Of a stretch of 64,000 nucleotides of DNA, positions 16,609 through 63,928 are shown piece after piece. The stretch comes from Psychrobacter sp. JB385 (GTDB lineage: Bacteria > Pseudomonadota > Gammaproteobacteria > Pseudomonadales > Moraxellaceae). Location: contig NZ_FUKN01000014.1 of NCBI RefSeq assembly GCF_900163785.1, positions 186,001 through 250,000 on the forward strand. The letters are read 5' to 3'. How positions within the stretch are numbered: the stretch's first letter is position 1; every line of letters starts with the position of its first letter. Position numbers and translations under genes: made by a program. The notes below the pieces were generated by a model. That model was not told the DNA's origin. It worked only from the letters and a program-made list of their open reading frames with translations, and searched no databases.

Positions 16609-16965
16609 AGGCAGTCATAAAGCATCAATAGCAGTACGCCAAAACCAACGATGTCACTCGTTGTTTTGAATCGTTACTGTTGTTATTAGGGAGACTGTCT
16701 ATTTTAACAAATTTCATAATTAGACCTGCATGCGAATTGTAATTTGCACCCTCCAGACTGCCTTTGCCATTCATCAATTCATGTATAAATGCATTGCTGT
16801 AAAAGAAATATTTTGTTACATTCCATACGTTTAACTTACCTCAAGGCTCTTACTTTGAAGCCATGACCTTGATACCAGTAGAATATGGCGGTTAACGTAC
16901 AGGCAATCTCAGATAAATAAAAATAGTCATCACACAAAAATAGTGGTTTTAAAAGGTAGAAGTAC
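16609..16965. other. Intergenic region between divergent ABC and DMT transporter genes
   Basis: About 357 bases with no supported gene. It should hold two divergent promoters. ATACCAGTAGAA at about 16872 repeats 12 bases of the arm of the 22-bp inverted repeat after pnp, without a partner arm here. Nothing else stands out. Confidence 0.5.
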
Positions 16966-17814
16966 ATGATGTATTTAATGATCGCGGTGCTCTGTAGTGT
17001 CGCCGTGTCAGTGTTGCTAAAAATATTACGGCAAAAACAGATAGACATCCGTCAAACCATTGTTGCAGGCTACCCAGTGGCCTTTTTGTTGACTTGGTTT
17101 TTGTTAAAACCAGATCTTAGCGCAATCAATACACTTGGTGATGCATGGGGCGTCATTATTGCGCTTGGTGTCATATTGCCTACGGTATTTATATTACTTG
17201 GCCGCGCCATTGAAGCGGTCGGCATGGTGGCAACCGATGCCGCGCAGCGTTTGTCCTTGATTATTCCGATTGTGGCAGCCTTTTTATTGTTTGGTGAAGT
17301 GCTGACAGGCACGCGTGTCTTTGGATTGGCATTAGGATTCTTAGCCCTCGGCGCTTTGGTGTATCGTCCGCAATCTGGCAGCATCAATAAAGTAGCCAAA
17401 CATACACCACTTTGGCTGTTGGGCGTATGGCTAGGCTATGGAATTGTCGACATTTTATTTAAGCAAGTTGCCAAGCATGGAACGGCTTTTCCACTCACGC
17501 TGTTTGTCAGTTTTGGTTTGGCAGGACTGCTATTGTTTGGGTATTTGTTGTTCACTCGCGTACGCTGGCAAGGGGAGGCGCTTGCAGCAGGGCTGCTCTT
17601 AGGCGCGCTTAACATGGGAAATATTTATGCCTATGTCCGTGCCCATCAAGTATTGTCCGAATCACCAAGTATTGTCTTTACGGGTATGAATGTTGGCGTC
17701 ATTGCGGTTGCTACCATCATCGGTGTGGGTGTATTTAAAGAAACGCTCAATCGCATTAACATCATCGGTTTATTGCTCGCGGTTTGTTGTGTGGGCGTCT
17801 TATTTTTGGCCTAA
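16966..17814 (+). CDS. DMT superfamily (EamA-like) transporter
   Basis: The 282-residue protein is hydrophobic throughout, with about ten transmembrane helices in two similar halves, the arrangement of the drug/metabolite transporter superfamily. The first half includes VILPTVFILLGRAIEAVGMVA followed by LSLIIPIVAAFLLFGEVLTGTR, the typical EamA helix-4/5 motif; the second half ends with GVFKETLNRINIIGLLLAVCCVGVLFLA, the equivalent repeat. The substrate cannot be inferred. The ATG at 16966 is followed at once by a second ATG; AGGT lies 8-10 bases upstream. It is followed by the aldolase gene after 160 bases, perhaps as a separate unit. Confidence 0.85.
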   Translation: MMYLMIAVLCSVAVSVLLKILRQKQIDIRQTIVAGYPVAFLLTWFLLKPDLSAINTLGDAWGVIIALGVILPTVFILLGRAIEAVGMVATDAAQRLSLIIPIVAAFLLFGEVLTGTRVFGLALGFLALGALVYRPQSGSINKVAKHTPLWLLGVWLGYGIVDILFKQVAKHGTAFPLTLFVSFGLAGLLLFGYLLFTRVRWQGEALAAGLLLGALNMGNIYAYVRAHQVLSESPSIVFTGMNVGVIAVATIIGVGVFKETLNRINIIGLLLAVCCVGVLFLA

Positions 17815-17974
17815 CAATCAGCGCCAGTTTTATAAAAACGTTAACGTATCGTATATAGGCAGGCAGAGTGTCCTATGCTAAGGTTAGCTAAAAATAGTGA
17901 GGCTTATAGCACTAATAATAAGCCAATCATTTGTGACTTTTGACTTCAATAGATAAAAATAGGATGCACTCTCC

Positions 17975-48438: not shown

Positions 48439-51324
48439 ATGAATAGTATAACTAAAGAAGCAGTGAGTCTCGACCATACAGAACTGGCTGCTGACAACGC
48501 CAGCTATGTAGAAGCGCTTTATGAGCAATATCTCAATGATCCTAGTAGTGTAGATCAAGATTGGCAAACGTATTTTGAACAATACAGATCGCCAAACGAC
48601 GCACCGCACAACGCTATTAAAGATCAGTTTTTATTGCTTGCCCGCAATCAAACCGCCAACAAAGGTAGTGCTCAAACTACCGATTCAAACGTCAATAATC
48701 CTTCTGACTGCGCTGATCCAAAGCAGATGGGTGTTCAGCAGCTGATTTCTGCTTATCGTCGTCGTGGTCATCGCCGTGCTAAGCTTGATCCGTTAGATCT
48801 ACATCCACGCGCAGAAGTGGAAGATTTGACGCTTGCTTATCACAACTTGTCAGACGCGGATCTTGATACTGTATTTCCTACCAATGATTTAAATATTGGT
48901 AAAGATGAAGCCACATTGCGTGAAATCATCGAGATCATGGAGCGCGTATATTGCCGTTACATCGGTATTGAGTATATGCACGTAACCACCAGCAAAGAAA
49001 AACGCTGGATGGAGCAATATTTAGAAAGCAATCTGGGTTACATCAAGTTTGATAAAGAAAAGCGTTTATCTATCCTTGAGCGCCTGACAGCGGCTGAAGG
49101 CCTAGAAAAATATTTGGCACGTAAATACACGGGCGTTAAGCGTTTCGGTTTAGAAGGCGGCGAAAGCTTTATCCCTGCTATCAACGAAATCATCCAACGT
49201 GCTGGTCATTATGGCACCAAAGAGATGGTCATTGGTATGGCTCACCGTGGTCGCCTAAATCTACTGGTGAACATTTTAGGTAAAAATCCTGCCGATTTGT
49301 TTGACGAATTTGATGGTAAAGTGCAGCCAGAAAAAGGCTCAGGTGACGTTAAATACCATAATGGTTTTTCGTCCAATGTGATGACCCCAGGTGGTGAAGT
49401 GCATTTGGCGTTGGCATTTAATCCATCGCATCTTGAAATCGTAGCCCCAGTACTACAAGGGTCAGTGCGTGCGCGTCAAGTTCGCCGTAATGATGAGCCT
49501 TTAATGGAGCATACCGATGGTAACTCAGTATTGCCAATCGTTATCCATGGTGATGCCGCATTTGCTGGTCAAGGCGTGGTTCAAGAAACATTCCAAATGT
49601 CACAGACCCGTGCTTATACCACAGGTGGTACGGTACATATCGTTATCAATAACCAAGTTGGTTTTACCACTAGTCGTCAAGAAGATGCTCGCTCAACTGA
49701 GTATTGTACTGACGTTGCAAAAATGGTCCACGCGCCAATCTTGCACGTAAATAGTGATGATCCTGAATCTGTTGTATTTGCCGCTCAATTGGCCTTGGAT
49801 TATCGCCGCGAGTTTGACAAAGACATTATCATTGATTTGTTCTGTTATCGCCGTAACGGTCATAACGAAGCAGATGAGCCTTCAGCCACGCAGCCATTGA
49901 TGTATGCTGTGATCAAGAAGCTACCAACTGCTCGTACTATCTATGCACAGAAACTTATCGAAGACGGTATCTTAAGTGCAGATGAAGAAAAACAGTATGA
50001 AGATGATTATCGTGAGTCGTTAGATCGTGGTGACTATGTTGCCAACTCGCTAGTTAGCGAGCCTAACGAAGCATTATTTGTCGATTGGAAACCGTATCTC
50101 GGCCATGATTTGGTTGACGAGTGGGATACCAGTGTCGATATTGAGAAGCTCAAAGCTTATGGACGCCGTATGGCTGAAATGCCAGAAGGCTATAAGTTAC
50201 AGCGTCAGGTTCAGAAGGTAGTAGAGCAACGCTTAGCCATGCAAACTGGTGAAGAGCCACTGAACTGGGGTGCAGCTGAGACATTGGCTTATGCATCATT
50301 AGTAGACAACGATGATGTACTGGTCCGTATTACTGGCGAAGATGTCGGCCGTGGTACGTTCTCACATCGTCATAGCGAAATCTATAATGTCAACGATGGC
50401 AGCATGTATGTGCCATTGGCTCATATGAGTGACACGCAAGCCCGTTTTGCTACTTATAACTCATTGTTATCAGAAGAAGCCGTATTGGCTTTTGAATATG
50501 GTTATGCAACGACCGTACCGAACGCATTGATCGTTTGGGAAGCGCAGTTCGGTGATTTCGTCAACGGTGCACAGGTAGTGATCGATCAGTTCATCGCCAG
50601 TGGTGAGACCAAGTGGCAGCGCGTTTGTGGTCTGACTATGTTATTGCCGCATGGCTTTGAAGGTCAAGGCCCTGAGCATTCATCAGCACGTCTAGAGCGT
50701 TTCTTACAGCTGTGTGCTGAAGACAACATGCAAGTGATTACGCCAACCACGCCTGCACAGATTTACCATGCGCTGCGTCGTCAGGCTGTACGTCCAATTC
50801 GTAAACCATTGATTGTCATGTCACCGAAAAGTTTGTTACGCCATAAGTTGGCAACGTCGAACTTAGAAGAGCTTGCTAATGGTAAGTTTGAAACCGTATT
50901 GCCAGAGATGGACGATCACAACGCAGACAAAGTGACTCGTATGGTCTTATGTGGTGGTAAGGTTTACTACGATCTATTAGAACAGCGTCGTGCATTAGGT
51001 CTCGATCATGTTGCTATTGTCCGTATTGAGCAGCTTTACCCACTACCAGAAAAACGTTTGATTGCTGAGATTGAAAAGTATAGCAACTTGGCAGAGATCG
51101 TATGGACGCAAGAAGAGCCGCTTAATCAAGGCGCTTGGTATTATTTAGCACCGCATATGTTCCGTATTGTCGTACCGCACCCAACCAAGGCGAAAGTCAT
51201 GGAGCCGGTGGCACGTCCTCCTAGTGCAGCACCTGCGACAGGCTCACCAAAGATACATGCTCAGCAGCAGCAAGCGTTGATCGCTGGTGGACTTGGCATC
51301 AGTGTTGATGAGTTATCTCAGTAA
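48439..51324 (+). CDS. sucA: 2-oxoglutarate dehydrogenase E1 component
   Basis: SucA is the thiamine-diphosphate enzyme that decarboxylates 2-oxoglutarate and transfers the succinyl group to the lipoyl domain of SucB. The 961-residue protein has the N-terminal recruitment segment ELAADNASYVEALYEQYLNDPSSVDQDWQTYF, then GMAHRGRLNLLVNILGK, FNPSHLEIVAPVLQGSVRARQ, HGDAAFAGQGVVQETF (cofactor region), INNQVGFTTS and ITGEDVGRGTFSHRHSEI, LLPHGFEGQGPEHSSARLERFLQL in the C-terminal half. Ribosome binding sequence is weak. It is the first gene of sucAB-lpd-sucCD. Confidence 0.98.
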   Translation: MNSITKEAVSLDHTELAADNASYVEALYEQYLNDPSSVDQDWQTYFEQYRSPNDAPHNAIKDQFLLLARNQTANKGSAQTTDSNVNNPSDCADPKQMGVQQLISAYRRRGHRRAKLDPLDLHPRAEVEDLTLAYHNLSDADLDTVFPTNDLNIGKDEATLREIIEIMERVYCRYIGIEYMHVTTSKEKRWMEQYLESNLGYIKFDKEKRLSILERLTAAEGLEKYLARKYTGVKRFGLEGGESFIPAINEIIQRAGHYGTKEMVIGMAHRGRLNLLVNILGKNPADLFDEFDGKVQPEKGSGDVKYHNGFSSNVMTPGGEVHLALAFNPSHLEIVAPVLQGSVRARQVRRNDEPLMEHTDGNSVLPIVIHGDAAFAGQGVVQETFQMSQTRAYTTGGTVHIVINNQVGFTTSRQEDARSTEYCTDVAKMVHAPILHVNSDDPESVVFAAQLALDYRREFDKDIIIDLFCYRRNGHNEADEPSATQPLMYAVIKKLPTARTIYAQKLIEDGILSADEEKQYEDDYRESLDRGDYVANSLVSEPNEALFVDWKPYLGHDLVDEWDTSVDIEKLKAYGRRMAEMPEGYKLQRQVQKVVEQRLAMQTGEEPLNWGAAETLAYASLVDNDDVLVRITGEDVGRGTFSHRHSEIYNVNDGSMYVPLAHMSDTQARFATYNSLLSEEAVLAFEYGYATTVPNALIVWEAQFGDFVNGAQVVIDQFIASGETKWQRVCGLTMLLPHGFEGQGPEHSSARLERFLQLCAEDNMQVITPTTPAQIYHALRRQAVRPIRKPLIVMSPKSLLRHKLATSNLEELANGKFETVLPEMDDHNADKVTRMVLCGGKVYYDLLEQRRALGLDHVAIVRIEQLYPLPEKRLIAEIEKYSNLAEIVWTQEEPLNQGAWYYLAPHMFRIVVPHPTKAKVMEPVARPPSAAPATGSPKIHAQQQQALIAGGLGISVDELSQ

Positions 51325-51368
51325 CAGATTATCTAATTGAAAGATTATATAAGATAAATGAATCAGGC

Positions 51369-51420
51369 GATAACAGTCAGCACAATGTAATTTTATCCAG
51401 CGTGGTGCTGACTGCTTATC
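51369..51420 (+). other. Long hairpin between sucA and sucB
   Basis: CAGTCAGCAC (51374-51383) pairs perfectly with GTGCTGACTG (51405-51414) and the stem extends with GATAA/TTATC across a one-base bulge. No T-run follows, which suggests mRNA stabilisation or processing. Confidence 0.65.
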
Positions 51421-51466
51421 ACGACTTAATAATAAGTATGAATATCCAAATCTAAGGAGTATATCG

Positions 51467-52708
51467 ATGGCTGATATCAAAGCCCCCGTTTTTCCAGAAT
51501 CGGTTGCCGATGGCACAATCGTTGAATGGCATGTTACTGAAGGTCAGCAAGTAAATCGTGATGACCTATTGGCCGAAATCGAAACCGATAAAGTCGTATT
51601 AGAAGTGGTAGCGCCTGATAATGGCGTTGTGACTAAAATCGTTAAACAAGTAGATGACACGGTATTGTCTGACGAGCTTATTGCTGAATTCGAAGCGGGT
51701 GCAAGCGCCAGTACAGATTCTGCTCCAGCTGTAGATCCAGATCAACCAGCCGCACCAGTACAAGCAAAGCAAGCCGCTGATGGTGGCGAGCCTGTGCAAG
51801 TGACAGATAAAAAGAACGAAGATGATCACAAAGATCAAAGCCCAGCAGTTCGTAAAGCAGCAAAAGAAAGCGGCGTAGATCCTAAAGAAGTTGAAGGTAG
51901 TGGTCGCGGTGGCCGTGTTACCAAAACAGATATGGCAAACCCAACGTTGAAAGCAGACAGTAGCATCAAGTCTGATAGCGGTCGTCCAGTTGCTGAATCA
52001 GCAGGTGAGCGTACTGAAAAACGTGTCCCAATGACACGTCTTCGTAAGACAGTGGCAAATCGTTTGCTAGCAGCATCTCAAGAAACCGCGATGCTAACGA
52101 CGTTCAACGAAGTTAACATGAAGCCGTTGATGGATATGCGTGCTAAATATAAAGACCAGTTTGAAAAACGTCATGGCGTACGTTTAGGCTTTATGTCATT
52201 GTTTGTAAAAGCTGCGACAGAAGCACTCAAACGCTTCCCAGCCGTAAACGCTTCACTAGATGGTGATGACATTGTTTATCATGGCTTCTATGATATCGGT
52301 GTTGCCGTATCATCAGATCGTGGCCTAGTCGTTCCTGTATTACGTGATACCGATCGCATGAGCATGGCAGATGTAGAGAGCCGTATCCGTGAGCTTGGCG
52401 GCCTTGCCCAAAAAGGTAAGCTTGGTATCAGCGATATGACTGGTGGTACGTTCACAATCTCAAACGGCGGTGTGTTTGGCTCATTGATGTCAACGCCAAT
52501 TTTGAACCCACCCCAAACCGCTATCCTAGGTATGCATGCAATCAATGACCGTCCTATGGCTGTTGATGGTAAAGTTGAAATCTTACCAATGATGTATCTC
52601 GCACTTTCTTATGACCATCGTATGATTGATGGTAAAGAAGCGGTGCAATTCTTAGTAACGATCAAAGAGCTGGTTGAAGATCCAGCCATGTTACTACTAG
52701 ACTTATAA
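51467..52708 (+). CDS. sucB: 2-oxoglutarate dehydrogenase E2 (dihydrolipoyl succinyltransferase)
   Basis: SucB carries the lipoyl group and transfers succinyl to CoA. The 413-residue protein has one lipoyl domain ([10 protein letters not shown]-like start, lipoyl Lys in [11 protein letters not shown]), an Ala/Pro/Gln-rich linker, the E1/E3-binding domain ([32 protein letters not shown]), a second linker and the catalytic domain ([53 protein letters not shown], and [16 protein letters not shown] with catalytic His and Asp). AAGGAG precedes the ATG. A hairpin with T-run follows. Confidence 0.97.
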
Positions 52709-52714
52709 GCTTCT

Positions 52715-52750
52715 AAGCTTGTATTGGCAAACGCTGATACAAGCTTTTTA
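52715..52750 (+). terminator. Terminator between sucB and lpd
   Basis: AAGCTTGTAT pairs with ATACAAGCTT around a 12-nt loop, followed by a short T-run, directly after the sucB stop. Partial termination would separate sucAB from lpd. Confidence 0.7.
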
Positions 52751-52960
52751 ACTTTAGTATCAATGTTGGGCAAGGTAGTTAATAAGCTGTATATCGATTG
52801 GCATATCAAAGCAATCTGGTCATCAGTATTGAGTATTTATTAACGAGTAAGAGCATAATCTGCCGTCATAGTGTATTAACTATGATTGGGGTCTGCCTTT
52901 TATCCATTGATAACAAAGCCCACAGTTTGAATAATACATAAACTTAGAATTGAAAAATAG

Positions 52961-54424
<1,464 letters not shown>

Positions 54425-54495
54425 GTAGTTATTTTAATAAGTACCGACTTATAACCTGATTGTGGCAGCGCTAGCATAGCGGTTGCTACGATCAT

Positions 54496-54543
54496 AAGTG
54501 CGTCAGACATACGTTAAATATGTATATACGACGCACTTGTTTT
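54496..54543 (+). terminator. Hairpin between lpd and sucC, weak terminator
   Basis: AAGTGCGTC (54496-54504) pairs with GACGCACTT (54530-54538), with a further pairing region inside, followed by GTTTT. It could act as a weak terminator or a stability element. Confidence 0.6.
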
Positions 54544-54581
54544 CACTTTTTATTAATTGTAAAAAATAAAGGATACAATCA

Positions 54582-55748
54582 ATGAATCTACATGAGTATC
54601 AAGCAAAAGAGCTATTAAAGAGCTACGGACTGCCTATCCAGGAAGGTATTATTGCCCATAACGGCGACGAAGCTGCCGCTGCTTTTGATAAGACACCAAC
54701 TGACATCGCGGTTATCAAAGCACAGGTACATGCAGGTGGTCGTGGTAAAGCGGGTGGTGTAAAACTGGTTAAGACTCGTGAAGAAGCCAAGCAAGTTGCT
54801 GAAGAGCTTATCGGTACTAACCTAGTAACGTTCCAAACAGATGCTGACGGTCAGCCAGTTAACTTCGTATTGGTTGCAGAAGATATGTATCCAGTACAAA
54901 CTGAGCTATATCTTGGCGCAGTGGTTGATCGTGCAACTCGTCGCGTGACTTTCATGGCATCGACCGAAGGCGGTGTGGATATTGAAGAAGTGGCTCACAA
55001 CACGCCAGAAAAAATCTTCAAAGTACACGTTGATCCTTTAGTTGGTCTACTACCTTTCCAAGCGCGTGACGTTGCGTTCAAGCTAGGCCTAGAAGGCAAG
55101 CAGATCAATCAGTTTGTTAAATTAATGACTGGTGCTTATAAAGCATTTGTTGAAAATGACTTTGCTTTGATGGAAATCAACCCATTAGCAGTCCGTGAAA
55201 ACGGCGAAATCGTTTGTGTTGATGGCAAAATCGGTATCGACTCAAACGCCCTTTATCGTCTGCCAAAAATCGCAGCGCTACAAGACAAAACGCAAGAAAA
55301 TGAGCGTGAGCTTAAAGCCGCTGAATTTGATCTAAACTACGTTGCTCTAGAAGGTAACATCGGTTGTATGGTCAACGGTGCTGGTCTTGCCATGGCGACC
55401 ATGGATATCATCAAATTGTACGGTGGCAAGCCTGCTAACTTCTTGGACGTTGGCGGCGGTGCAACCAAAGATCGCGTTGTTGAAGCGTTCAAAATTATTC
55501 TAGAAGACAGCAGTGTTGAAGGTGTTCTTATCAATATCTTCGGCGGTATCGTACGTTGTGACATGATTGCAGAAGCCATTATCGCTGCTATCAAAGAAGT
55601 TGACGTAAAAGTACCGGTGGTTGTTCGTTTAGAAGGTAACAATGCTGAGAAAGGCGCACAGATCTTAGAAGAGTCTGGTTTGAAGCTTATTTCTGCTCAA
55701 GGCCTATCTGACGCTGCTCAAAAAATTGTCGATGCTGTTAAAGCCTAA
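54582..55748 (+). CDS. sucC: Succinyl-CoA synthetase beta subunit (ADP-forming)
   Basis: SucC with SucD converts succinyl-CoA to succinate with ATP or GTP formation. The 388-residue protein has the ATP-grasp fold: [38 protein letters not shown] (nucleotide binding), [45 protein letters not shown], and the C-terminal [14 protein letters not shown]...[16 protein letters not shown]. Length equals that of E. coli SucC. AAGGA precedes the ATG. sucD follows after about 155 bases. Confidence 0.98.
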
Positions 55749-55904
55749 GTTTTTAAACATAGGTCTTTACACATAAACGTTTAGAAATAAACGCTTAAGC
55801 ATAGTAGTCAAAGCGTGATAAAAGCTTGTTGGCATAAAAATAGATCATTGATCAATAAGCCATCAAGTGATTATTACAAGACAACCGAATACAAGGAAAA
55901 CATA

Positions 55905-56780
55905 ATGAGTGTATTAATCGATAAAGATACCAAAGTATTGGTACAAGGTTTTACTGGTAAAAATGGTACGTTCCATTCTGAGCAAGCCATTGAATACGGT
56001 ACAAAAGTTGTTGGCGGCGTAACCCCAGGTAAAGGTGGTCAGACTCACCTAGGTCTACCAGTATTCAACACAATGGCGGAAGCCATGGAAGCCACTCAAG
56101 CGGATGCTTCTGTTATCTATGTACCAGCACCGTTCGTACTAGATTCTATCATCGAAGCAGTCGATGCAGGCGTTAAATTGATCGTTGTGATCACCGAAGG
56201 TGTTCCAACGCTTGATATGCTAAAAGCCAAGCGCTATCTTGAATCAGCGGGCGATGTGCGTCTTGTTGGTCCTAACTGCCCAGGTGTCATCACGCCAGGT
56301 CAATGCAAAATCGGTATCATGCCAGGCCACATCCATCAGCCAGGTAAAGTGGGTATCATCTCACGCTCTGGTACATTGACTTATGAAGCCGTTGCTCAAA
56401 CAACTAAGCTTGGTTTTGGTCAGTCTACTTGTATCGGTATCGGTGGCGATCCTATCCCTGGTATGAACCAGATTGATGCGTTGAAATTGTTCGAAGCTGA
56501 TCCACAGACTGAAGCGATTATCCTAATCGGTGAAATCGGTGGTACTGCTGAAGAAGAAGCAGCTGCTTATATCAAAGACCACGTCACTAAGCCAGTCGTT
56601 GGTTATATCGCTGGTGTTACCGCTCCAGAAGGCAAGCGTATGGGTCATGCTGGCGCTATTATCTCTGGTGGTCAAGGTACTGCTGAAGAGAAATTCAAAG
56701 CCTTTGAAGATGCTGGTATCGCATACACGCGTGACCCATCTAAACTTGGTGAGAAGCTAAAAGAAGTTACTGGTTGGTAA
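55905..56780 (+). CDS. sucD: Succinyl-CoA synthetase alpha subunit
   Basis: SucD binds CoA and carries the phosphorylated His. The ATG at 55905 is chosen because AAGGA lies eight bases upstream; an earlier frame opening at 55815 is not needed. The 291-residue product starts [31 protein letters not shown] (CoA-binding Rossmann fold), with [22 protein letters not shown] and [17 protein letters not shown], where the first His is the phosphorylated residue. Last gene of the suc cluster, closed by a strong terminator that marks the edge of the housekeeping block. Confidence 0.98.
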
Positions 56781-56827
56781 TATAGCCATGAGCTTATTAA
56801 CTACTAAAACTGTATTGTAATATCAAG

Positions 56828-56859
56828 AAGACACCCCTACAATGGGGTGTCTTTTTTTT
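56828..56859 (+). terminator. Intrinsic terminator of sucCD
   Basis: AAGACACCCC / GGGGTGTCTT ten-bp stem with a 6-nt loop, followed by a T-run to 56859. It lies only 25 bases before the start of the next gene. Confidence 0.93.
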
Positions 56860-56884
56860 GTTTAGCTACATGGGATTAACAGTT

Positions 56885-59092
56885 ATGTCAGATGCTCAGA
56901 ATGAAATCAGTAACCTTAAAAATATGCTTATTGAGTTGAGCCAGCGAGTAGAAGATGCCGCAATTAATTCTGAAAGAAATATTCATAGAAATGTCTTCGA
57001 TGACGAAAACGATTCTGAACAATATTTAAATCTCAGTGAGTTAAGACAAGATCTAGAAGAAGCAAATTCTAGGAATCAAATATTGAACCAAGAAATAGCA
57101 TCCTTGAAGATAGATAAAACAAACTTAGAGTATGAAAATAACAAGAATATTAAGAAAAAAGACTATTATGCAAAGCAGATGGAACAGCATGAAAAAAGGA
57201 ATAGGAAGCTTTTTGAACTATATTCAGCAGATAAGGAAGAGCTTTTTAATTATAAGTTACTAACTGAAAAACTGAGACAAGAAATAGTTAGTTTGGAAAA
57301 TAATATTGATAAACAAGAACAACGCTATGAGAATCTGAAAAATCAGTTATCATATAAACTCGGCAGCAGATTAATTGGCCTAAAAAAATCAAAAGATTTA
57401 TTAAAATTACCAAAAAATTTATTGGACGACTATGTTTCTGTTAAGTCCAAAGTTAATAACTCGTCTGCTTTATCACTTATAGAGCAGACGGTGCCTTTAG
57501 CCTCGCAACCAATTTATAACAACAACAGAGAATATACAATTTTCAATAAAAGTGCGACTTTGCCACTTAAAAGTAATCCCAGTACTGTTATTTTCGATCA
57601 AGGCTTTAAAGGTTCTTTAGATTTGCAGTTATATGGTGTAAAACCTTCTGCAACTGTTGAGATTGAGCTAACTATTCGTGCATATCAAAGTGACTCTATT
57701 TTCAGAATAATGCCAGACCTAAAGCATGTGCATCATCTTCCTGCTAACGAAGCTATGACAATTCCCATTACGGTCAGTGATGATCAAGCCCATCAGTTCA
57801 TGCAAATAATGAGTTCCAACGGAGCTATTGAAGTTTCTTTTAGAAAAAAACGTGGTGTTCCTTCTTTTATACATCTCCTACAGGTAGGGCATCATAATAA
57901 TATTATTTTAGATAGTAATAGCATGAACGACAGCAATAAGGCTATTTCTAATGAGAAAATAATTCCTAAGCCTAAGAAGAAAAGTTCACTATTTAGAGAA
58001 GCATTAGATATACAAAAGCAATTTGATTTCAATATTGCACGATTATTTTTAGAAAAATACACTCCTGAAGATCAAAAAAGTACGATCAATATTTTTTATG
58101 CAAATAATGAATTAGCGAATCAAACAAGATGGTTGAGTTATATAAATACATACATTAAGGATCATGGTATGCAACCTATCGAGTTGAAAGACAACGAAAA
58201 AGAGAAATTTTATCGTATTCATAGTCCAGCAAGCTATAAAGTCGAGGATGGGACAAAGATATCTGTCATCATGCCAGCGTACAATGCTGAGAAGACAATT
58301 GAACTCTCTATGAAATCGATTTTAAATCAGACTTGGCAAAATTTAGAGTTGATTGTTATTAATGACTGTAGTGCTGATCGCACATCTGAGATTATTAAAA
58401 AGATAGCTTTAACTGACTCAAGAGTCAAATTTATAGATAACCCATGTAATGTGGGTGCATATGTTTCTAAAAATTTAGGTCTCATAATCGCTAAAGGCGA
58501 TTATATTACTGGACATGACGCCGATGATTGGGCATATCCGCAGCGTCTTGAACAACATATGAAACTTATAAGATCAGAAGTTACACCGCCTCGTGCTAGT
58601 AATACACGTATGATCAGGATGGAAGAAAGTGGGTATCTACCGTTGTATCCATTTGGTGCTTTCTGTCATGATGGAGTTATGAGAGTGGCTTCTATTACTT
58701 GTATGTTTGAAGTCAATTTCTTACGCAATACACTAGGAGGATGGGACTGTTCTCGTTTCGGTGCCGATAGCGAAATTATAAGCCGCTGTAAAATGGTCAT
58801 TGGTGATGAGTTTAAAAACTATAAATCATTAAGTATGATTTGTTTAGATGAACCTACTAGCTTAACCAACCACCCGATTCATGGTGTTTCAAAATCTACA
58901 GGTATATCACCCTCTAGAAAATTTTACAAAGAACAATGGACCGAGTGGCATAAGAACCTTCAAATTTCTAATGTCTATTTAGAATTTCCTCATCTAGATA
59001 GAAAGTTTGCTTTACCTCAGGGAACAGAAATTCCAGAAGAAAATATAATAGAGGCTATTAATAATTTAGAATATAGAGTTGGGAGCAAATAA
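56885..59092 (+). CDS. Family 2 glycosyltransferase with N-terminal coiled coil
   Basis: The 735-residue protein (ATG at 56885; ATG at 56870 or TTG at 56858 are alternatives and would run into the terminator) has three parts. Residues about 10-170 are a long coiled coil (LNQEIASLKIDKTNLEYENN..., KLRQEIVSLENNIDKQEQRYENLKNQL). Residues about 200-440 form a domain I do not recognise. From about 459 comes a GT-A fold glycosyltransferase: KISVIMPAYNAEKTIELSMKSIL, LELIVINDCSADRTSEII and the metal-binding GHDADDWAYPQRLEQH. It probably adds sugars to a surface glycan from a nucleotide donor in the cytoplasm. DNA is distinctly AT-rich. It abuts the next gene (TAA then ATG). Confidence 0.85.
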   Translation: MSDAQNEISNLKNMLIELSQRVEDAAINSERNIHRNVFDDENDSEQYLNLSELRQDLEEANSRNQILNQEIASLKIDKTNLEYENNKNIKKKDYYAKQMEQHEKRNRKLFELYSADKEELFNYKLLTEKLRQEIVSLENNIDKQEQRYENLKNQLSYKLGSRLIGLKKSKDLLKLPKNLLDDYVSVKSKVNNSSALSLIEQTVPLASQPIYNNNREYTIFNKSATLPLKSNPSTVIFDQGFKGSLDLQLYGVKPSATVEIELTIRAYQSDSIFRIMPDLKHVHHLPANEAMTIPITVSDDQAHQFMQIMSSNGAIEVSFRKKRGVPSFIHLLQVGHHNNIILDSNSMNDSNKAISNEKIIPKPKKKSSLFREALDIQKQFDFNIARLFLEKYTPEDQKSTINIFYANNELANQTRWLSYINTYIKDHGMQPIELKDNEKEKFYRIHSPASYKVEDGTKISVIMPAYNAEKTIELSMKSILNQTWQNLELIVINDCSADRTSEIIKKIALTDSRVKFIDNPCNVGAYVSKNLGLIIAKGDYITGHDADDWAYPQRLEQHMKLIRSEVTPPRASNTRMIRMEESGYLPLYPFGAFCHDGVMRVASITCMFEVNFLRNTLGGWDCSRFGADSEIISRCKMVIGDEFKNYKSLSMICLDEPTSLTNHPIHGVSKSTGISPSRKFYKEQWTEWHKNLQISNVYLEFPHLDRKFALPQGTEIPEENIIEAINNLEYRVGSK

Positions 59093-60748
59093 ATGCAAAA
59101 TTTATATAGTCATATTCAAACTCATGCGAATAACACGCCCAATAAAACAGCTATTGTTTTTAAAGATGTCTCTGTTAGTTATGAACAATTTGATAAATTT
59201 ACGCAGAAAGTTCGAGCGTGGATTAACGAACAAAGTATAGAGAAAGGGCGTATAGGCTTAATATTTCTACCTCAGACACCTCAGGCAATCATGTGGTTTT
59301 TTGGATTAATGTCGGCTGGCATAATTCCTTCATTTATGCCGCTACCAAGCCACAAACAAGATGTAAAAAAATACTGGGAAAGCCATCAACAATTAATTGA
59401 GTTAACAAACCCATCATTAATTATTACGACAGATGAGTGGCTGTCTTCTTTTGATAAGATTACAGAAAAAATCGAATGTACTGTATATGATAATAATGTG
59501 TTATCTTCTTATATATCGAATGAAACTGTTCATGATACTACTTATCAAGTTGCGTTCTTGCAGCACAGCTCAGGTACTACAGGTCTGAAGAAAGGGGTTG
59601 CCCTATCTCATGAAGCTGTAATGGATCAGATTGAGTCGTATTCTACTTCCTTATCTGCTACTTCTGAAGATGTTATTGTTTCTTGGTTACCGATATATCA
59701 TGATATGGGATTGATTGCTTGTACTATCATGCCGTTGATATTAGGACAAACGATTATATTACTAGATCCATTTGAATGGGTAAGTAAACCTATAAGTCTA
59801 TTACAAGCCATTACTGAGTATAGAGGAACATTAGTTTGGCTGCCAAACTTTAGTTTTGAACATTTACGTCGAACTGTCAAAACCAAGAAGTTTGAGGGTT
59901 TAGATCTTTCTACAGTGCGAGCTTTCGTAAACTGTTCTGAACCTTGTAAAGCAGAAACCTTTGATAGGTTTTTCAATCATTTCCAAGACATTGGTGCTAC
60001 ACAAGAAAAGTTGCAAGTATGTTATGCAATGGCTGAAACGGTATATGCAGTAACTCAGACAGAAGTTGGTAAGGTTGTAAACAAGATCTGGGTGGATGAA
60101 CAAGCATTGTTAGAGAGTAAAGTATTGCTAACTAGCCGTGGTAATGGTTCACAATTACTTAGTTGTGGAAAAGTAATAGAAGGTTGCCAAGTAAAAATAT
60201 TGAATCCAGACTCTTCTGAGTTAGTAAGTTCAGATTGTGTAGGAGAGATAGTAATTTCTGGTAAATTCTTGTTTGATGGCTATTATCATCGTCCTGAAAA
60301 AACCAAAGAAGTATTTGATGGCTCATGTTATCGGACCCGTGATTTGGGATTTATACATGATGATGAACTTTATGTCCTAGGACGAAGAGATGATTTAATC
60401 ATTAGTAACGGCAGAAACTATTTTGCGCATGAAATCGAAAGAATTGTTAATGATTTACCTAATATCAAACCAGGTCGTAATATTGCGCTAGGGGTATATA
60501 GCGAACAAATAGGTAGTAATGAAATCTATCTGGTTCAAGAAAGAACAAAAGAAGAATTAACTGATGAAAAACTTGATAAACAGTTAATTAAAGTAATGCG
60601 TCAAGCAGTTCAGGACGAAATAGGTTTATTATTACGTGATGTGATTTTAGTAGAGCCTTCATGGTTACATAAAAGTAGTAGTGGTAAAATAAGTCGAGAA
60701 TTGAATAAAAGTAAATTACTAGAATTTTTAAATAAGGACAAACTATGA
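59093..60748 (+). CDS. AMP-forming acyl ligase, fatty-acyl-AMP ligase (FAAL)-like
   Basis: The 551-residue protein belongs to the ANL superfamily. Motifs: LQHSSGTTGLKKGVALSH (P-loop-like A3, about 159-175), SWLPIYHDMGLI, CYAMAETVYAVTQTE (A5), the A7/A8 region YRTRDLGFIHDDELYVLGRRDDLIISNGRNYFAHEIE, and the catalytic Lys in SSSGKISRE near residue 530. The wording LPIYHDMGLI and GRRDDLIISNGRNYFAHEIE is closest to fatty-acyl-AMP ligases, which activate a fatty acid as acyl-AMP and pass it to an acyl carrier protein instead of CoA. Start ATG directly follows the glycosyltransferase stop with GGGAG upstream. The end overlaps the ACP gene by four bases (ATGA), so it probably loads that ACP. Confidence 0.85.
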   Translation: MQNLYSHIQTHANNTPNKTAIVFKDVSVSYEQFDKFTQKVRAWINEQSIEKGRIGLIFLPQTPQAIMWFFGLMSAGIIPSFMPLPSHKQDVKKYWESHQQLIELTNPSLIITTDEWLSSFDKITEKIECTVYDNNVLSSYISNETVHDTTYQVAFLQHSSGTTGLKKGVALSHEAVMDQIESYSTSLSATSEDVIVSWLPIYHDMGLIACTIMPLILGQTIILLDPFEWVSKPISLLQAITEYRGTLVWLPNFSFEHLRRTVKTKKFEGLDLSTVRAFVNCSEPCKAETFDRFFNHFQDIGATQEKLQVCYAMAETVYAVTQTEVGKVVNKIWVDEQALLESKVLLTSRGNGSQLLSCGKVIEGCQVKILNPDSSELVSSDCVGEIVISGKFLFDGYYHRPEKTKEVFDGSCYRTRDLGFIHDDELYVLGRRDDLIISNGRNYFAHEIERIVNDLPNIKPGRNIALGVYSEQIGSNEIYLVQERTKEELTDEKLDKQLIKVMRQAVQDEIGLLLRDVILVEPSWLHKSSSGKISRELNKSKLLEFLNKDKL

Positions 60749-60993
60749 CTCATGAAAAAATTATGAAGTTAGTCGCAAATACTATTGAAGAAACATTTAT
60801 GGTTGATGCAACTGAAGTGACAAGAGATACTGTCGCTATAGATATATCAGGTTGGGATTCACTTTCTCACACTATTTTATTATCGAATATTGAAGATCAA
60901 TTAGATCAAACTTTGGATTTAGAAGAGTTGGATTTTAAAAATGTTGGTGACTTAGTCGATTTTATAATCAAACAAGTAAATAGTAGCCTTTAG
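60745..60993 (+). CDS. Acyl carrier protein
   Basis: The 82-residue protein is a stand-alone carrier domain. The phosphopantetheine attachment Ser39 sits in GWDSLSHTILL, in the usual D-S-L motif, with four predicted helices (MTHEKIMKLVANTIEETF..., ...SNIEDQLDQTLDLEELDFKNVGDLVDFI). The start ATG overlaps the ligase stop (ATGA), so the two are translationally coupled. It is not the housekeeping AcpP (no fab genes nearby and different sequence). Role: to receive the acyl group made by the ligase and offer it to another enzyme of the locus (inference). Confidence 0.9.
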   Translation: MTHEKIMKLVANTIEETFMVDATEVTRDTVAIDISGWDSLSHTILLSNIEDQLDQTLDLEELDFKNVGDLVDFIIKQVNSSL

Positions 60994-61038
60994 ATCATAT
61001 TTTATACGTACAAGTATTAAAATTCTAAGAGAAGATAT

Positions 61039-61887
61039 ATGGCAAAAATTATACATGATGAATTTAATTGCATTGATAGAATCGCTTTAACAGATGATCC
61101 AGTAAGTGATTTTAGTGTGGTAATGCAAGGTATTCAGTTAGATTGTCGTTTGAATCAGAAAGTAAAAAATGACTATTTGATAGTGACTCCTAATGGAGCA
61201 GTTGATAGGACAAAAGTTGAACTACCTGCCTTTGCGCGTTGGAACTGGCACGGGATTTTCAATAGTAATATACTTGCTATTTCAGACCCTACATTACATT
61301 TTGATCAGAATATACCAATAGGTTGGTTTGCTGGTACCAAGTACCAAAATGTTGCTGCATTTGTTGCAGATGTTGTAGTTAAAGTGGCATCTTTACTAGA
61401 TATTCCACCTAATAAAATAGTTTTTTGGGGAAGTTCTGCTGGGGGGTTTGCAAGTATATCGCTTGCCTCAGAAATTGACGGCGCTTGCTTTGTCAGTGCA
61501 AATGGTCAAACAGACATTTTGAATTATTATGCAGGACATATTGAACATTTCAGAAGAGTGTTTGATCCTAATTTCTCGGCTGAAAGTTTAGCAAGTAAAT
61601 ATCCTGAAAAATGGTCTGCAATTACGGCATTACAAAACTCTTACGATGCTATGAAATCAACACATGGCGTTATTGTTCAAAATATTGTCGATGCTAAGCA
61701 TTATAATGAACATTATATACCGTTTTGTAATCACTTTCATTTACCAATAGAAGGTGGAAGTGTTGAAAAACTAAACTTACATAGTTTATTATTTTCTCAT
61801 GAGAAAGGGCATGGGCCTGAACCTGCAGAGATAGCAAAACAGGTCGTTGAAGAATATCTACCAAAACTCTTAGGTGAAAATAAGTAG
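61039..61887 (+). CDS. Alpha/beta-hydrolase-fold protein, possible acyl transferase or esterase
   Basis: The 282-residue protein has the nucleophile elbow GSSAGG (Gly131-Ser132-Ser133-Ala134-Gly135) after the strand KIVFW, fitting GxSxG with Ser133 as nucleophile, and a C-terminal His in SHEKGHGPEP. The N-terminal part (YLIVTPNGAVDRTKVELPAFARWNWHG, ILAISDPTLHF) resembles hydrolase-like proteins of surface-polysaccharide loci. No signal peptide. It is the fourth gene of the GT-ligase-ACP operon (45 bases after the ACP gene, GAGAAG upstream of the ATG). It could transfer the acyl group from the ACP to the glycan or act as an editing thioesterase. Its exact family is not recognised. Confidence 0.7.
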   Translation: MAKIIHDEFNCIDRIALTDDPVSDFSVVMQGIQLDCRLNQKVKNDYLIVTPNGAVDRTKVELPAFARWNWHGIFNSNILAISDPTLHFDQNIPIGWFAGTKYQNVAAFVADVVVKVASLLDIPPNKIVFWGSSAGGFASISLASEIDGACFVSANGQTDILNYYAGHIEHFRRVFDPNFSAESLASKYPEKWSAITALQNSYDAMKSTHGVIVQNIVDAKHYNEHYIPFCNHFHLPIEGGSVEKLNLHSLLFSHEKGHGPEPAEIAKQVVEEYLPKLLGENK

Positions 61888-61888
61888 A

Positions 61889-62749
61889 TTATCTTGACTT
61901 GACGGTATCAATTACCGCTTTACCCCAACCTGTATATGGATTAAATATAGGTTGGCTTTTATCGAATTCAATTGACTGACTGCTTTCCCATATCAATACC
62001 CCATCAGCGTTTAGACTCTTTAGATAGTCTAAACGCTTTTTCATATCGCTTTCAGAGAGCTGTTTGATAACAAAACCTTTCGGATTATCTGTTCGTCGCT
62101 TCACCTTATAGATTGGTGAGAGATAAGGAATAATCTTGTGGGTATTACTATATTTTTTTGTTTCTTCAAATGCAAAATCAGCTGATATCTTCCATTTTTC
62201 AAAATCCTCTCCATCGTAGTTATATAATACTGGGCTTAATACGGTAGTCAAAGAAGCAATATTGGCATATTTTTCATTCAGTTTACTATACTTAGATCGC
62301 TGAAAATTACTGCCAACAGTGTTCTGAGGTAGTAAGCCATAAACTCCTACAAGATTATTACCATTATTTTTGTGATATAAGTTTAGGGTTTTCTCGACTG
62401 TAGGTAGTATGGTTTCGGGCTTAATTTTATTACCAATTTCTATATCAAATGATATTAAAGCATCCGAGTTTCCCCTCGATAATTTTGCTACTTTTTCGAT
62501 CTTAACAGGATCTGGTTTATCTTGGGTAAACATGCCTTTTGGATAGATAACAAAAGCTTTTTTAGTGCCATACTGTGTGAGGTAATCATCTAAATTCTTG
62601 GTTTGATGTAACTCACCTTTCTCTAAGTAGTATTTCCACGGAACAAATGTGTATACATCGAAACAATAAACCTTAGAGCTAACCATTAACAATATAAATA
62701 CAGCTGTAAATTTATTTAAGTGAAAAGTAGAGCACGTATATTTATTCAT
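61889..62749 (-). CDS. Exported protein of unknown function, possible TIM-barrel glycoside hydrolase
   Basis: The 286-residue protein has a signal-peptide-like N-terminus (KFTAVFILLMVSSKVYC, about residues 13-29, after a 12-residue polar start). The mature part shows alternating strand/helix character: KAFVIYPKGMF, DALISFDIEIG with acidic residues at a strand end, LVGVYGLLPQ, LTTVLSPVLYNY, KIIPYLSPIYK, LNADGVLIWESSQSIEF, and a C-terminal FNPYTGWGKAVIDTVK. This is consistent with a (beta/alpha)8 barrel of a glycan-active hydrolase, but I cannot name a family. Its end lies one base from the end of the convergent hydrolase gene. It is AT-rich like its neighbours. Confidence 0.6.
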   Translation of the reverse strand: MNKYTCSTFHLNKFTAVFILLMVSSKVYCFDVYTFVPWKYYLEKGELHQTKNLDDYLTQYGTKKAFVIYPKGMFTQDKPDPVKIEKVAKLSRGNSDALISFDIEIGNKIKPETILPTVEKTLNLYHKNNGNNLVGVYGLLPQNTVGSNFQRSKYSKLNEKYANIASLTTVLSPVLYNYDGEDFEKWKISADFAFEETKKYSNTHKIIPYLSPIYKVKRRTDNPKGFVIKQLSESDMKKRLDYLKSLNADGVLIWESSQSIEFDKSQPIFNPYTGWGKAVIDTVKSR

Positions 62750-62893
62750 AATAATACCTTTGATAATTGGTATTCTTGTTTGCTTTCAGAAGGACTTAGC
62801 CATTAAGCAGATAGGTTATGTATATTTCTAATATAATAAAATTTTTTCAATTAACGGCAATTATATTTTTTACCAAGCTATAAGTCGATGAAT

Positions 62894-63928
62894 TTATACC
62901 TGATAAAACCTCAGATAATTAGAGAAGATACTACCCTTTAATAAATCTTGAAATAACCTTGCTTCTGCTTCACTAAACAGCTGACCTAATTGCTTGTCTA
63001 ATTCTGGACTATATTCTGGGAAATAACGTCCAGGATGTGGTGTCAACTCTCCTAAGTAGTAGCCATCTACACCTTTATAAAAATCGATGCGCATAAATGG
63101 AGCAGGAATGTTCAGAGATATTTTTTTAGCATACTCTATGACTTGGGATTCAAACCCTGTTCCTTCGAACCATGGTTGGCTGCGACGTTCGCTCTCAAGG
63201 ATATCACCTTTCTCGTTGTACCAGCACTGATAGGCTTTATCGGCTCTTTTTATTTCTAATACGGCTCCGATTTCTCCATAATAAGCATATACTTTTATAT
63301 CATGAGCTGCTTTTCCATCACGGTTCAATATGAGCGTTTCAGTCTGCCATGATCCTTGAATTTTTCTACGAGCTATCTCTGCTTTGAATGCTTCCAAGCT
63401 TGTAAAAGTATCGTTTGTTTTGACTTCTACTATGTTCTCACTATTAAAATAGAAGAAAACGTTTCTAGATGAGCTATCAAATGAGGGTTTAATGACGATA
63501 GATTCAGTAAATTCAATATTCTCAAACTTACATTCACTTTGAATCAATTGTGGCGTAGGGATATCTAAAGACTGCGCAAACTCCTGATCTGTCTTTTTGT
63601 TATTATTCCAAGGAGAAATATTACAGTCTATAGCACTTAAATGCTGTTTAAAGCGCATATACTCTATTTGTTTGGCAACATGAGAGTATGAGGAAGGTAG
63701 AGACATATAGGGTGCTATATATGTTTGTCTAATCTCTTTAGAAGGAATGACTTTATATACAAGCTCCAATGCTTCTACGTACTCTTGACTATTATAACCA
63801 TATTGGAAGGCAATGTTGTTTAACATTAGGCGGATAGATTGTTGATTATTATCAAGTTGTTTAATATTTATCTTAAGCTGGGCCAGAGTGTTATTATAAA
63901 TTTTTGACTGTGTCGTTGAGTCCGGCAT
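62894..63928 (-). CDS. ATP-grasp protein, TupA-like
   Basis: The 344-residue protein has an ATP-grasp domain: IVIKPSFDSSSRNVFFYFNS (ATP-binding strand-loop), WQTETLILNRDGKAAHDIKVYAYYGEIGAVLEI, and the C-terminal MRIDFYKGVDGYYLGELTPHPGRYFPEYSPELDKQLG, matching the pattern R-x-D-F-Y...GE-x-T-x-x-P-x-G of TupA-like proteins, which contain the Mg/ATP acidic residues. TupA takes part in teichuronopeptide synthesis, and relatives in polysaccharide loci ligate amino acids or similar groups to glycans. The N-terminal 100 residues are helical and unassigned. The next upstream gene ends two bases before its ATG, so they form one operon. Confidence 0.78.
   Translation of the reverse strand: MPDSTTQSKIYNNTLAQLKINIKQLDNNQQSIRLMLNNIAFQYGYNSQEYVEALELVYKVIPSKEIRQTYIAPYMSLPSSYSHVAKQIEYMRFKQHLSAIDCNISPWNNNKKTDQEFAQSLDIPTPQLIQSECKFENIEFTESIVIKPSFDSSSRNVFFYFNSENIVEVKTNDTFTSLEAFKAEIARRKIQGSWQTETLILNRDGKAAHDIKVYAYYGEIGAVLEIKRADKAYQCWYNEKGDILESERRSQPWFEGTGFESQVIEYAKKISLNIPAPFMRIDFYKGVDGYYLGELTPHPGRYFPEYSPELDKQLGQLFSEAEARLFQDLLKGSIFSNYLRFYQV

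Follow-up and report, generated by a model that had tools for sequence, protein, structure and literature searches.

A four-gene cassette at positions 56885 to 61887 of a 64,000-nucleotide stretch of the Psychrobacter sp. JB385 genome (contig NZ_FUKN01000014.1, positions 186,001 to 250,000; hereafter the window) probably serves capsule decoration: its products would activate a small carboxylic acid, load it onto an acyl carrier protein (ACP) and, through a protein of the alpha/beta-hydrolase fold, move it to a capsule sugar. All four genes lie on the forward strand. They encode a 735-residue family 2 glycosyltransferase (GT2) with an N-terminal coiled coil (56885..59092), a 551-residue acyl-AMP ligase of the fatty-acyl-AMP ligase (FAAL) type from a distinct clade (59093..60748), a dedicated ACP of 82 residues (60745..60993) and the 282-residue hydrolase-fold protein, the proposed capsule acyltransferase (61039..61887). 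The stop codon TAA of the glycosyltransferase gene abuts the ATG of the ligase gene, the ligase and ACP genes share an ATGA overlap, and 45 bases separate the ACP and hydrolase genes. Pfam assigned the first three open reading frames (ORFs) to Glycos_transf_2 (7.5e-30), AMP-binding (4.1e-55) and PP-binding (5e-6). Comparison of the Psychrobacter copies indicated purifying selection on all four genes (nonsynonymous divergence 0.15-0.30 versus synonymous divergence 1.17-2.05, the latter near saturation and the glycosyltransferase compared with one copy only). A preliminary description of this DNA had listed the same four coupled genes, on which the ORF list and Pfam agree, and had seen no ketosynthase or peptide synthetase among them. 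Indeed, no domain of a polyketide synthase (PKS) or nonribosomal peptide synthetase (NRPS) other than the ligase and ACP themselves exceeded its Pfam cut-off in the six ORFs at 56885-63928; a FAAL pathway linked to PKS or NRPS modules was rejected on the lack of ketosynthase and condensation domains in these six ORFs, no whole-genome search for such modules having been made.

By alignment and phylogeny, the ligase is of the FAAL type. Its best NCBIfam match is the fatty acyl-AMP ligase model (281 bits, below the cut-off of 600 for that model), and its best matches among solved sequences are 3kxw, three chains named polyketide synthase and the FAAL 3pbk; the record of 3kxw carries another name, and we take this protein to be a FAAL as well. 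The stretch from E315 to G359 with the FAAL-specific insertion (60035..60169) aligns as 44 residues in the ligase. The corresponding length is 46-53 residues across 30 other FAALs and 20-22 residues in four of the genome's own AMP-binding paralogues, which were taken as coenzyme A (CoA) ligases; a further, poorly aligned paralogue shows 30 residues there and two more could not be aligned over this stretch. Three of the 11 AMP-binding places of the source genome, one being the window ligase itself, gave no locus for the paralogue set. M205 and F253 are present in 15/15 members of the clade described below, in 30/30 other FAALs and in none of the paralogues that align at these positions; we matched them ourselves to the conserved Met and Phe assigned to the blocked CoA pocket of FAALs (PMC8460268). 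In a tree of 52 rows, the 45 FAAL-type rows stand apart from the seven paralogues with support 100/100, at a join for which the tree tool issued a long-branch warning. The reading of the ligase as an acyl-CoA synthetase (FACL) is rejected on the insertion and the tree, and the FAAL-like character seen in the preliminary description, where a missing insertion was named as the sign of an acyl-CoA synthetase, is upheld by an insertion that is present in the alignment. Near the C-terminus, Lys532 of the motif SSSGKISR (codon 60686..60688), invariant in six aligned ligases, is presumably the adenylation lysine.

Within the FAALs, the window ligase belongs to a clade of 15 with support 100/99, while the 30 other FAALs group only at 84/69. 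The long-branch warnings extend to clade members L110 and L112, and the tree was computed without two very long proteins of genome G1032 (L097 and L104) and without the paralogue L004, which gave no BLAST hit. Four positions set the clade apart. Position 249 (codon 59837..59839), a presumed acyl-pocket position, is Trp in 15/15 clade members and in 0/30 other FAALs; position 281 is Cys in 14/15 and Gly in 29/30, respectively; positions 312 and 209 are Ala in 13/15 and 12/15 of the clade and Gly in 30/30 other FAALs. By comparison with 4-coumarate-CoA ligase and acetyl-CoA synthetase, positions 281 and 312 presumably line the acyl pocket. Since the clade residues are bulkier at the presumed pocket positions than those of the 30 other FAALs, the substrate acid is probably small. 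The preliminary description had proposed a fatty or other carboxylic acid; the carboxylic acid stands, and it is probably a small one instead of a fatty one.

Clade members were collected through sequence similarity and, in part, through ACP neighborhood, so that neither the signature nor the partner counts describe a random sample. With a profile built from the three Psychrobacter ACPs, 15/398 Pseudomonadota genomes gave a match, the source included, and 15 other matches in 14 genomes were examined; at three of these 15 loci (L069, L071 and L080) the same cassette holds a ligase 38-41% identical to that of the window. A profile of six ligases matched 20/260 genomes of the class of genome G663, with at most five candidates scored per genome. 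Besides G663, the eight best places were taken (at least 383 bits); the places that follow (at most 351 bits) correspond to open frames with lengths of 948-1031 residues and, in two cases, 2415 and 2557 residues. A plasmid search with the ligase matched 14/72,556 records, of which one, from Leptolinea, added a distant clade member (L113, 33% identity), the others being about 28-31% identical. The genome searches sampled part of the known species, genes at loci of high G+C content were called with a simple codon score, and the neighbors of the other FAALs were examined at lesser depth than those of the clade.

The ACP keeps close company with these ligases. Ser39 of its DSL motif (codon 60859..60861), the phosphopantetheine site, is invariant in the three Psychrobacter copies, and an ACP lies in the same cassette or the same protein in 14/15 clade members, one of them weak (L111, fused, E 0.03); no ACP was found in the 19.7 kb read around the plasmid member L113. 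Loci L069, L071 and L080 were found through their ACP, and its presence there is not independent. Eight clade loci were found by the ligase alone, and the ACP is clear in seven and weak in one (L111). The ACPs of L105 (2e-23) and L112 (2e-19) were absent from the ACP profile that detected them; those of L106, L107 and L110 were first seen by BLAST, and those of L108 and L109 by Pfam, before they joined the profile. The best solved match of the ACP profile is 2lml, a 'putative acyl carrier protein' (E 3.7e-9), which we take to be GmACP3 of Geobacter metallireducens. All three of the other FAALs scanned in this respect (3 of 30; L033, L030 and L098) are single-protein fusions of an ACP, a FAAL and a PlsC-type acyltransferase; by their domain order these appear as a lipid-type counterpart, in which FAAL and ACP likewise feed an acyltransferase. 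The loading step is well supported by protein family, insertion and gene fusion elsewhere, all of them sequence features; the transfer step, the acid and the sugar are inferred.

The gene that completes the set differs across the clade. Outside Psychrobacter, a third partner exceeded its Pfam cut-off at 8/12 loci: WcbI at L069, L071 and L105, DUF2920 at L106 and L107, AlgX at L110, and, at L108 and L109 from two related genomes, a hexapeptide domain at the end of a ligase-ACP protein (PP-binding match below cut-off in L108 and above it in L109). At L069 and L071 the WcbI gene stands between the ACP and ligase genes; at L105 it is found some 2 kb upstream of the ligase ORF, from which another gene separates it. 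The WcbI alignment did not include L071. For the third gene of L080, membership of the WcbI family was considered and could not be confirmed, with no Pfam match and an hhalign probability of 2.9% despite the common GNCQA/GNCHA start; this locus also has a GSCFA gene. Likewise, the fused C-terminus of L111, which looks SGNH-like by eye, has no Pfam match and no solved relative, its one hit being a designed protein at E 0.63, and the third gene of L112 has no Pfam match. The fusion genes of L108 and L109 adjoin ORFs that by eye resemble asparagine synthase, NeuB (L109) and amidotransferase. At these two loci the acid may go onto a sugar of the nonulosonic-acid type.

In Psychrobacter, the hydrolase-fold protein is the best acyltransferase candidate. 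Pfam returned only sub-threshold alpha/beta-hydrolase matches (Peptidase_S9, 17.9 bits versus a cut-off of 22.6), and the motif GSSAGG is present. Ser133 in a GxSxGG-type elbow (codon 61435..61437; presumed nucleophile), Asp218 (codon 61690..61692; candidate catalytic acid) and His258 in KGHGPEP (codon 61810..61812; presumed catalytic histidine) are invariant in the three Psychrobacter copies, their roles as a triad being putative; in the Psychrobacter immobilis copy the first Gly of the motif is Asn. The best NCBIfam match is the XcbB/CpsF capsule family (E 4e-4, 19.6 bits, far below the cut-off of 125). The structural model has alpha/beta-hydrolase topology at low confidence, with a mean predicted local distance difference test (pLDDT) score of 57.6. 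Its fold matches include a Gap123 glycosylation-associated complex (Z 13.5), the thioesterase DcsB (12.8), Ag85C (12.5) and CsaC (12.3), in a search that does not discriminate among alpha/beta hydrolases. A plasmid search with the protein matched five records, and the loci of three were examined. One relative, 28% identical, belongs to a capsule locus on a Citrobacter plasmid that also has wecB, wecC, galU and capsule genes and in which no ligase is annotated within 12.7 kb (the annotation being incomplete by nature), and another lies in an Escherichia coli plasmid polysaccharide locus. A DUF6270 gene precedes the relative in the Citrobacter plasmid (L115:5130-6729), and in Psychrobacter genome G027 a similar N-terminal part is, by eye, seemingly fused to a hydrolase relative (L023:8198-10219). 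A distant relative in Psychrobacter genome G189 (L024; G189:C2:429809-430237) has an in-frame stop and is maybe a decayed gene.

The whole set is rare and travels together. Among 249 Moraxellaceae genomes, the source included, the ligase is present in three (E up to 1e-80) and the hydrolase-fold protein in six (E up to 1e-5), with strong matches (E <1e-120) in the same three genomes as the ligase. The three weak matches (21-30% identity) lie in capsule-type regions of other Psychrobacter genomes that have no ligase at E 1e-80. The order GT2-ligase-ACP-hydrolase is kept in 3/3 strong cases, all three in a capsule-type region, so that the set proposed earlier does co-occur in related genomes. 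The two other copies are 77 and 74% identical to those of the window in the ligase, 74 and 62% in the hydrolase-fold protein, 69 and 61% in the ACP, and 70 and 33% in the glycosyltransferase. A narrow-pattern contig scan with the ligase gave 103 pattern matches, of which three loci were kept and one was an ortholog (P. immobilis, 74% match). Class-level sampling matched the ligase in 18/369 genomes, at 28-34% identity outside the source, and the hydrolase-fold protein in 1/369, the source genome itself; E. coli genomes had no match to the ligase or hydrolase DNA. Because the P. immobilis glycosyltransferase, at 33% identity, is without the coiled coil and ligase-ACP pairs elsewhere keep other partners, the glycosyltransferase is probably specific to its glycan and stands outside the acylation core. 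The preliminary description had joined all four genes in one mechanism; their gene company is real, and the single coupling is weakened by this divergence and by the varied partners of the wider clade.

The location of the cassette points to a capsule. It sits between sucD and galU in an AT-rich capsule-type region, set apart from sucD by a terminator-like hairpin (56825..56856, forward strand; 13-pair stem with a T tail) that marks its upstream boundary. In 1-kb steps, the G+C content is 41-47% over 50000-56999 and drops to 32-36% at 57000 and beyond, consistent with a region that was acquired or can be exchanged. Beyond the cassette, convergent genes encode an ORF at 61889..62749 (reverse strand; Glyco_hydro_56 match below the Pfam cut-off), a TupA-like ATP-grasp enzyme at 62894..63928 (reverse strand; PF14305, 9e-32), a GT2 of 363 residues, a sugar dehydrogenase and a one-domain KpsC-like protein, followed by galU and pgi; the sugar dehydrogenase, galU and pgi were named by eye. 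Five other Psychrobacter loci at this place (L014, L021, L022, L024 and L023, the last ending early at a contig end) have constant ends and a variable middle as far as each reaches, a pattern resembling that of capsule loci. Searches with PF05159 and PF02563 located KpsC-, KpsS- and export-type (Poly_export) genes at C1:587-593 kb of the same genome, with ORFs that by eye are KpsM/T-like ABC-transporter and KpsE-like just upstream; we read these genes as a locus for ABC-transporter-dependent capsule export. In group 2 capsules, polymer and decoration are completed in the cytoplasm. Given the capsule-type locus and the export genes elsewhere in the genome, a capsule is the most likely destination. 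The acylated surface glycan of the preliminary description thus persists, most likely as a capsule of group 2 type, and the free glycolipid it also allowed is less likely in view of the locus and the export genes.

In the mechanism that we consider probable, the ligase would convert ATP and a small carboxylic acid to the acyl-adenylate and hand the acyl group to the dedicated ACP, on the phosphopantetheine arm that Ser39 carries. The acyl-ACP would then acylate Ser133 of the hydrolase-fold protein, from which the acyl group would move to the capsule sugar before export. The glycosyltransferase would add a sugar of that particular glycan and travel with the cassette since the decoration belongs to that glycan. 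The ligase-ACP pair would be a portable loading module to which different lineages coupled different transfer enzymes. Generalized, the clade with Trp249 and its ACPs would load small acids for surface glycans in general, in combination with acyltransferases from at least four unrelated families (alpha/beta hydrolase, WcbI, SGNH/AlgX and hexapeptide), with fusion into one protein in one confirmed case (two related genomes) and perhaps a second (L111); capsule enzymes of the WcbI and hydrolase types would then be partly acyl-ACP-dependent. We advance this wider proposal tentatively and rate it a little short of an even chance.

Several observations weigh against the proposed capsule acylation. 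The pocket argument depends on presumed structural equivalences, and the predicted ligase structure (pLDDT 41.5) is too poor for checking the acyl-pocket positions. In the fold search, ordinary hydrolases are level with or above CsaC (Z 13.2 and 13.0) in a comparison made with a weak model, and the sequence profile of the hydrolase-fold protein matches no solved hydrolase, three ATPase matches (E 0.2-0.4) being taken as chance. Homology between this protein and the DUF2920 partners was sought and went undetected (hhalign probability 3%). A transferase partner was not found in two of the 15 clade members (L112, on a 5.8-kb contig, and L113) and is unconfirmed in two more (L080 and L111), and a Cereibacter plasmid carries a hydrolase relative outside any evident capsule locus. 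For strains in which the cassette is known, a literature search yielded no capsule structure.

The alternatives are not mutually exclusive with one another, and their probabilities need not add up to one. One that we regard as unlikely places the acid on the amino group of a nucleotide sugar before polymerization, as with tetronate on perosamine, and leaves the hydrolase-fold protein another role. N-acylated surface sugars are documented in the N-lactoyl pseudaminic acid of the Psychrobacter marincola capsule (PMC7281560) and the tetronate-bearing perosamine of Vibrio cholerae O1 (PMC3441752), and three clade members (L108, L109 and L112) adjoin genes that by eye are of the amino-sugar or nonulosonate type. 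Against these stand the partner families, AlgX being a family of O-acylation and WcbI a proposed one (PMC4104973); moreover, no aminotransferase was recognized by eye among the ORFs from sucD to pgi, where no profile search was made.

The same partner families, together with the hydrolase relatives, bear on the rather unlikely case that the hydrolase-fold protein acts in proof-reading, as a thioesterase that releases the ACP, with transfer left to another protein, perhaps the glycosyltransferase or the product of a gene elsewhere. Where a GxSxG alpha/beta hydrolase stands beside a carrier protein, it is often a thioesterase, and the fold search also matched the thioesterase DcsB (Z 12.8). However, the third gene elsewhere in the clade comes from glycan-acylation families (WcbI, AlgX and hexapeptide), distant hydrolase relatives occupy capsule-type regions in three Psychrobacter genomes without a close ligase, and the relative in the Citrobacter capsule locus has no annotated ligase in the 12.7 kb of that incomplete annotation.

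In line with the fatty acid of the preliminary description, a long-chain acid could be joined to a sugar to give a glycolipid or lipid-modified glycan, which we think quite unlikely. This reading agrees with the fatty acids activated by the FAAL family (PMC11837247) and with the three ACP fusions to PlsC-type acyltransferases, but conflicts with the bulkier residues at the presumed pocket positions of the clade and with the lack of any PlsC- or MBOAT-type Pfam match in the six ORFs scanned. Synthesis by the set of a small, diffusible acylated compound with no link to the capsule, in keeping with the largely polyketide and lipopeptide roles described for FAALs (PMC11837247), is highly improbable in view of the six scanned ORFs without ketosynthase or condensation domain and the capsule-type placement in 3/3 Psychrobacter genomes that carry the cassette.

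Among known systems, ACP-dependent acylation of glycans is already known in kind, and the proposed cassette is a variant of it; new here are the distinct FAAL clade of 15 with its Trp249 signature and the variable third partner. A literature search in which most subscription literature was beyond reach recognized no paper on this cassette. The preliminary description knew of no named system with this composition, which needs amendment in that related ones have names: tetronate synthesis in V. cholerae O1, Aeromonas island group II and the CsaC-type O-acetyltransferases. The first two resemble the cassette in placing an AMP-forming enzyme and an ACP among surface-glycan decoration genes, and differ in including a reductase and LuxC/LuxE-type steps, none of which was recognized in the cassette. 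The Aeromonas flagellar glycosylation island of group II comprises an ACP, an AMP-synthetase, a reductase, luxE, luxC and a glycosyltransferase (PMC7874193). An ACP of the Flavobacterium psychrophilum O-antigen is a further precedent for ACP-linked surface-glycan decoration (PMC6519341), and decoration with a short acid is known from Psychrobacter itself in the lactoyl pseudaminic acid of the P. marincola capsule (PMC7281560).

CsaC of Neisseria meningitidis A is a proven alpha/beta-hydrolase capsule acetyltransferase that acts through an acyl-serine (PMC7501274), and E. coli K15 ORF5 has been proposed as a capsule acetyltransferase (PMC7387560). With these proteins and CssE/OatC, the hydrolase-fold protein shares a GxSxGG-type Ser elbow, an invariant His and Asp and a capsule-type locus; the fold of its low-confidence model is compatible with theirs. 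In contrast, CsaC draws on acetyl-CoA while the cassette supplies a ligase and an ACP, and no sequence similarity of the hydrolase-fold protein to solved structures is detectable. The cassette ligase has the fold, the insertion, the conserved Met and Phe and the ACP partner of FAALs such as 3pbk and FadD28/FadD32, but belongs to a separate clade with a bulkier presumed acyl pocket and has partners of the glycan-acylation type instead of PKS, NRPS or PlsC. In the dlt system (DltA, DltC, the MBOAT protein DltB and DltD), a ligase and a carrier protein likewise feed the acylation of a surface polymer; the six cassette-region ORFs at 56885-63928 have no MBOAT match in Pfam, and DltA structures match the cassette ligase at 1.8e-14 versus 4e-51 for 3pbk.

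WcbI (PF18588) belongs to a fold family other than that of the Psychrobacter hydrolase, and its relatives stand with related ligases and ACPs at three clade loci. It has been described as a CoA binder that shows no measurable activity by itself: the reported protein bound CoA tightly, showed no acetyltransferase activity in three assays and was proposed by its authors to need an acceptor-presenting partner (PMC4104973). At three loci, WcbI-family proteins are encoded close to an ACP and a dedicated ligase; unlike the acceptor-partner proposal, this gene arrangement suggests that an ACP supplies the donor to at least some enzymes of the WcbI type. Such ACP dependence, if true, would explain the inactivity of WcbI with acetyl-CoA and would offer a testable answer on the partner that WcbI-type proteins need.

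Acylation of a capsule influences its antigenicity and its reception of phages, and acetyl-CoA is the donor for the well-studied enzymes. If confirmed, a dedicated ligase-ACP loading module that works with one transferase or another would allow a greater variety of acids to be attached and provide a sequence signature for finding such capsules. It would also give FAALs a role outside lipids, polyketides and lipopeptides; in the main text of a 2025 FAAL review, the words polysaccharide, sugar and glycosyl do not occur and glycolipid occurs twice, the occurrence shown concerning mycobacterial lipids (PMC11837247).

Several minor observations concern the ACP relatives and the capsule region. Some ACP-profile loci have FkbH-like or MBOAT-like neighbors, and one has a WcbI (L068). 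At L072, L073, L074, L075, L076 and L078, the ACP relatives adjoin FkbH-like and in some cases also MBOAT-like proteins, recognized by eye and confirmed by Pfam for L073 only; these neighborhoods suggest another ACP-dependent acylation system. The ORF at 61889-62749, with a weak hyaluronidase-family match below the cut-off and by eye a signal-peptide-like start, adjoins the cassette in Psychrobacter genome G259 too, and a different gene occupies that place in P. immobilis (G008). In G259, an insertion with transposase-like ORFs interrupts the capsule-region gene for the sugar dehydrogenase (L021:16915-19078), and a KpsC-like remnant is present at L021 7891-8280, both recognized by eye. In P. 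immobilis, two very similar galE genes (L014:2748-3794 and 16850-17905) flank the capsule region and could promote exchange of its middle by recombination.

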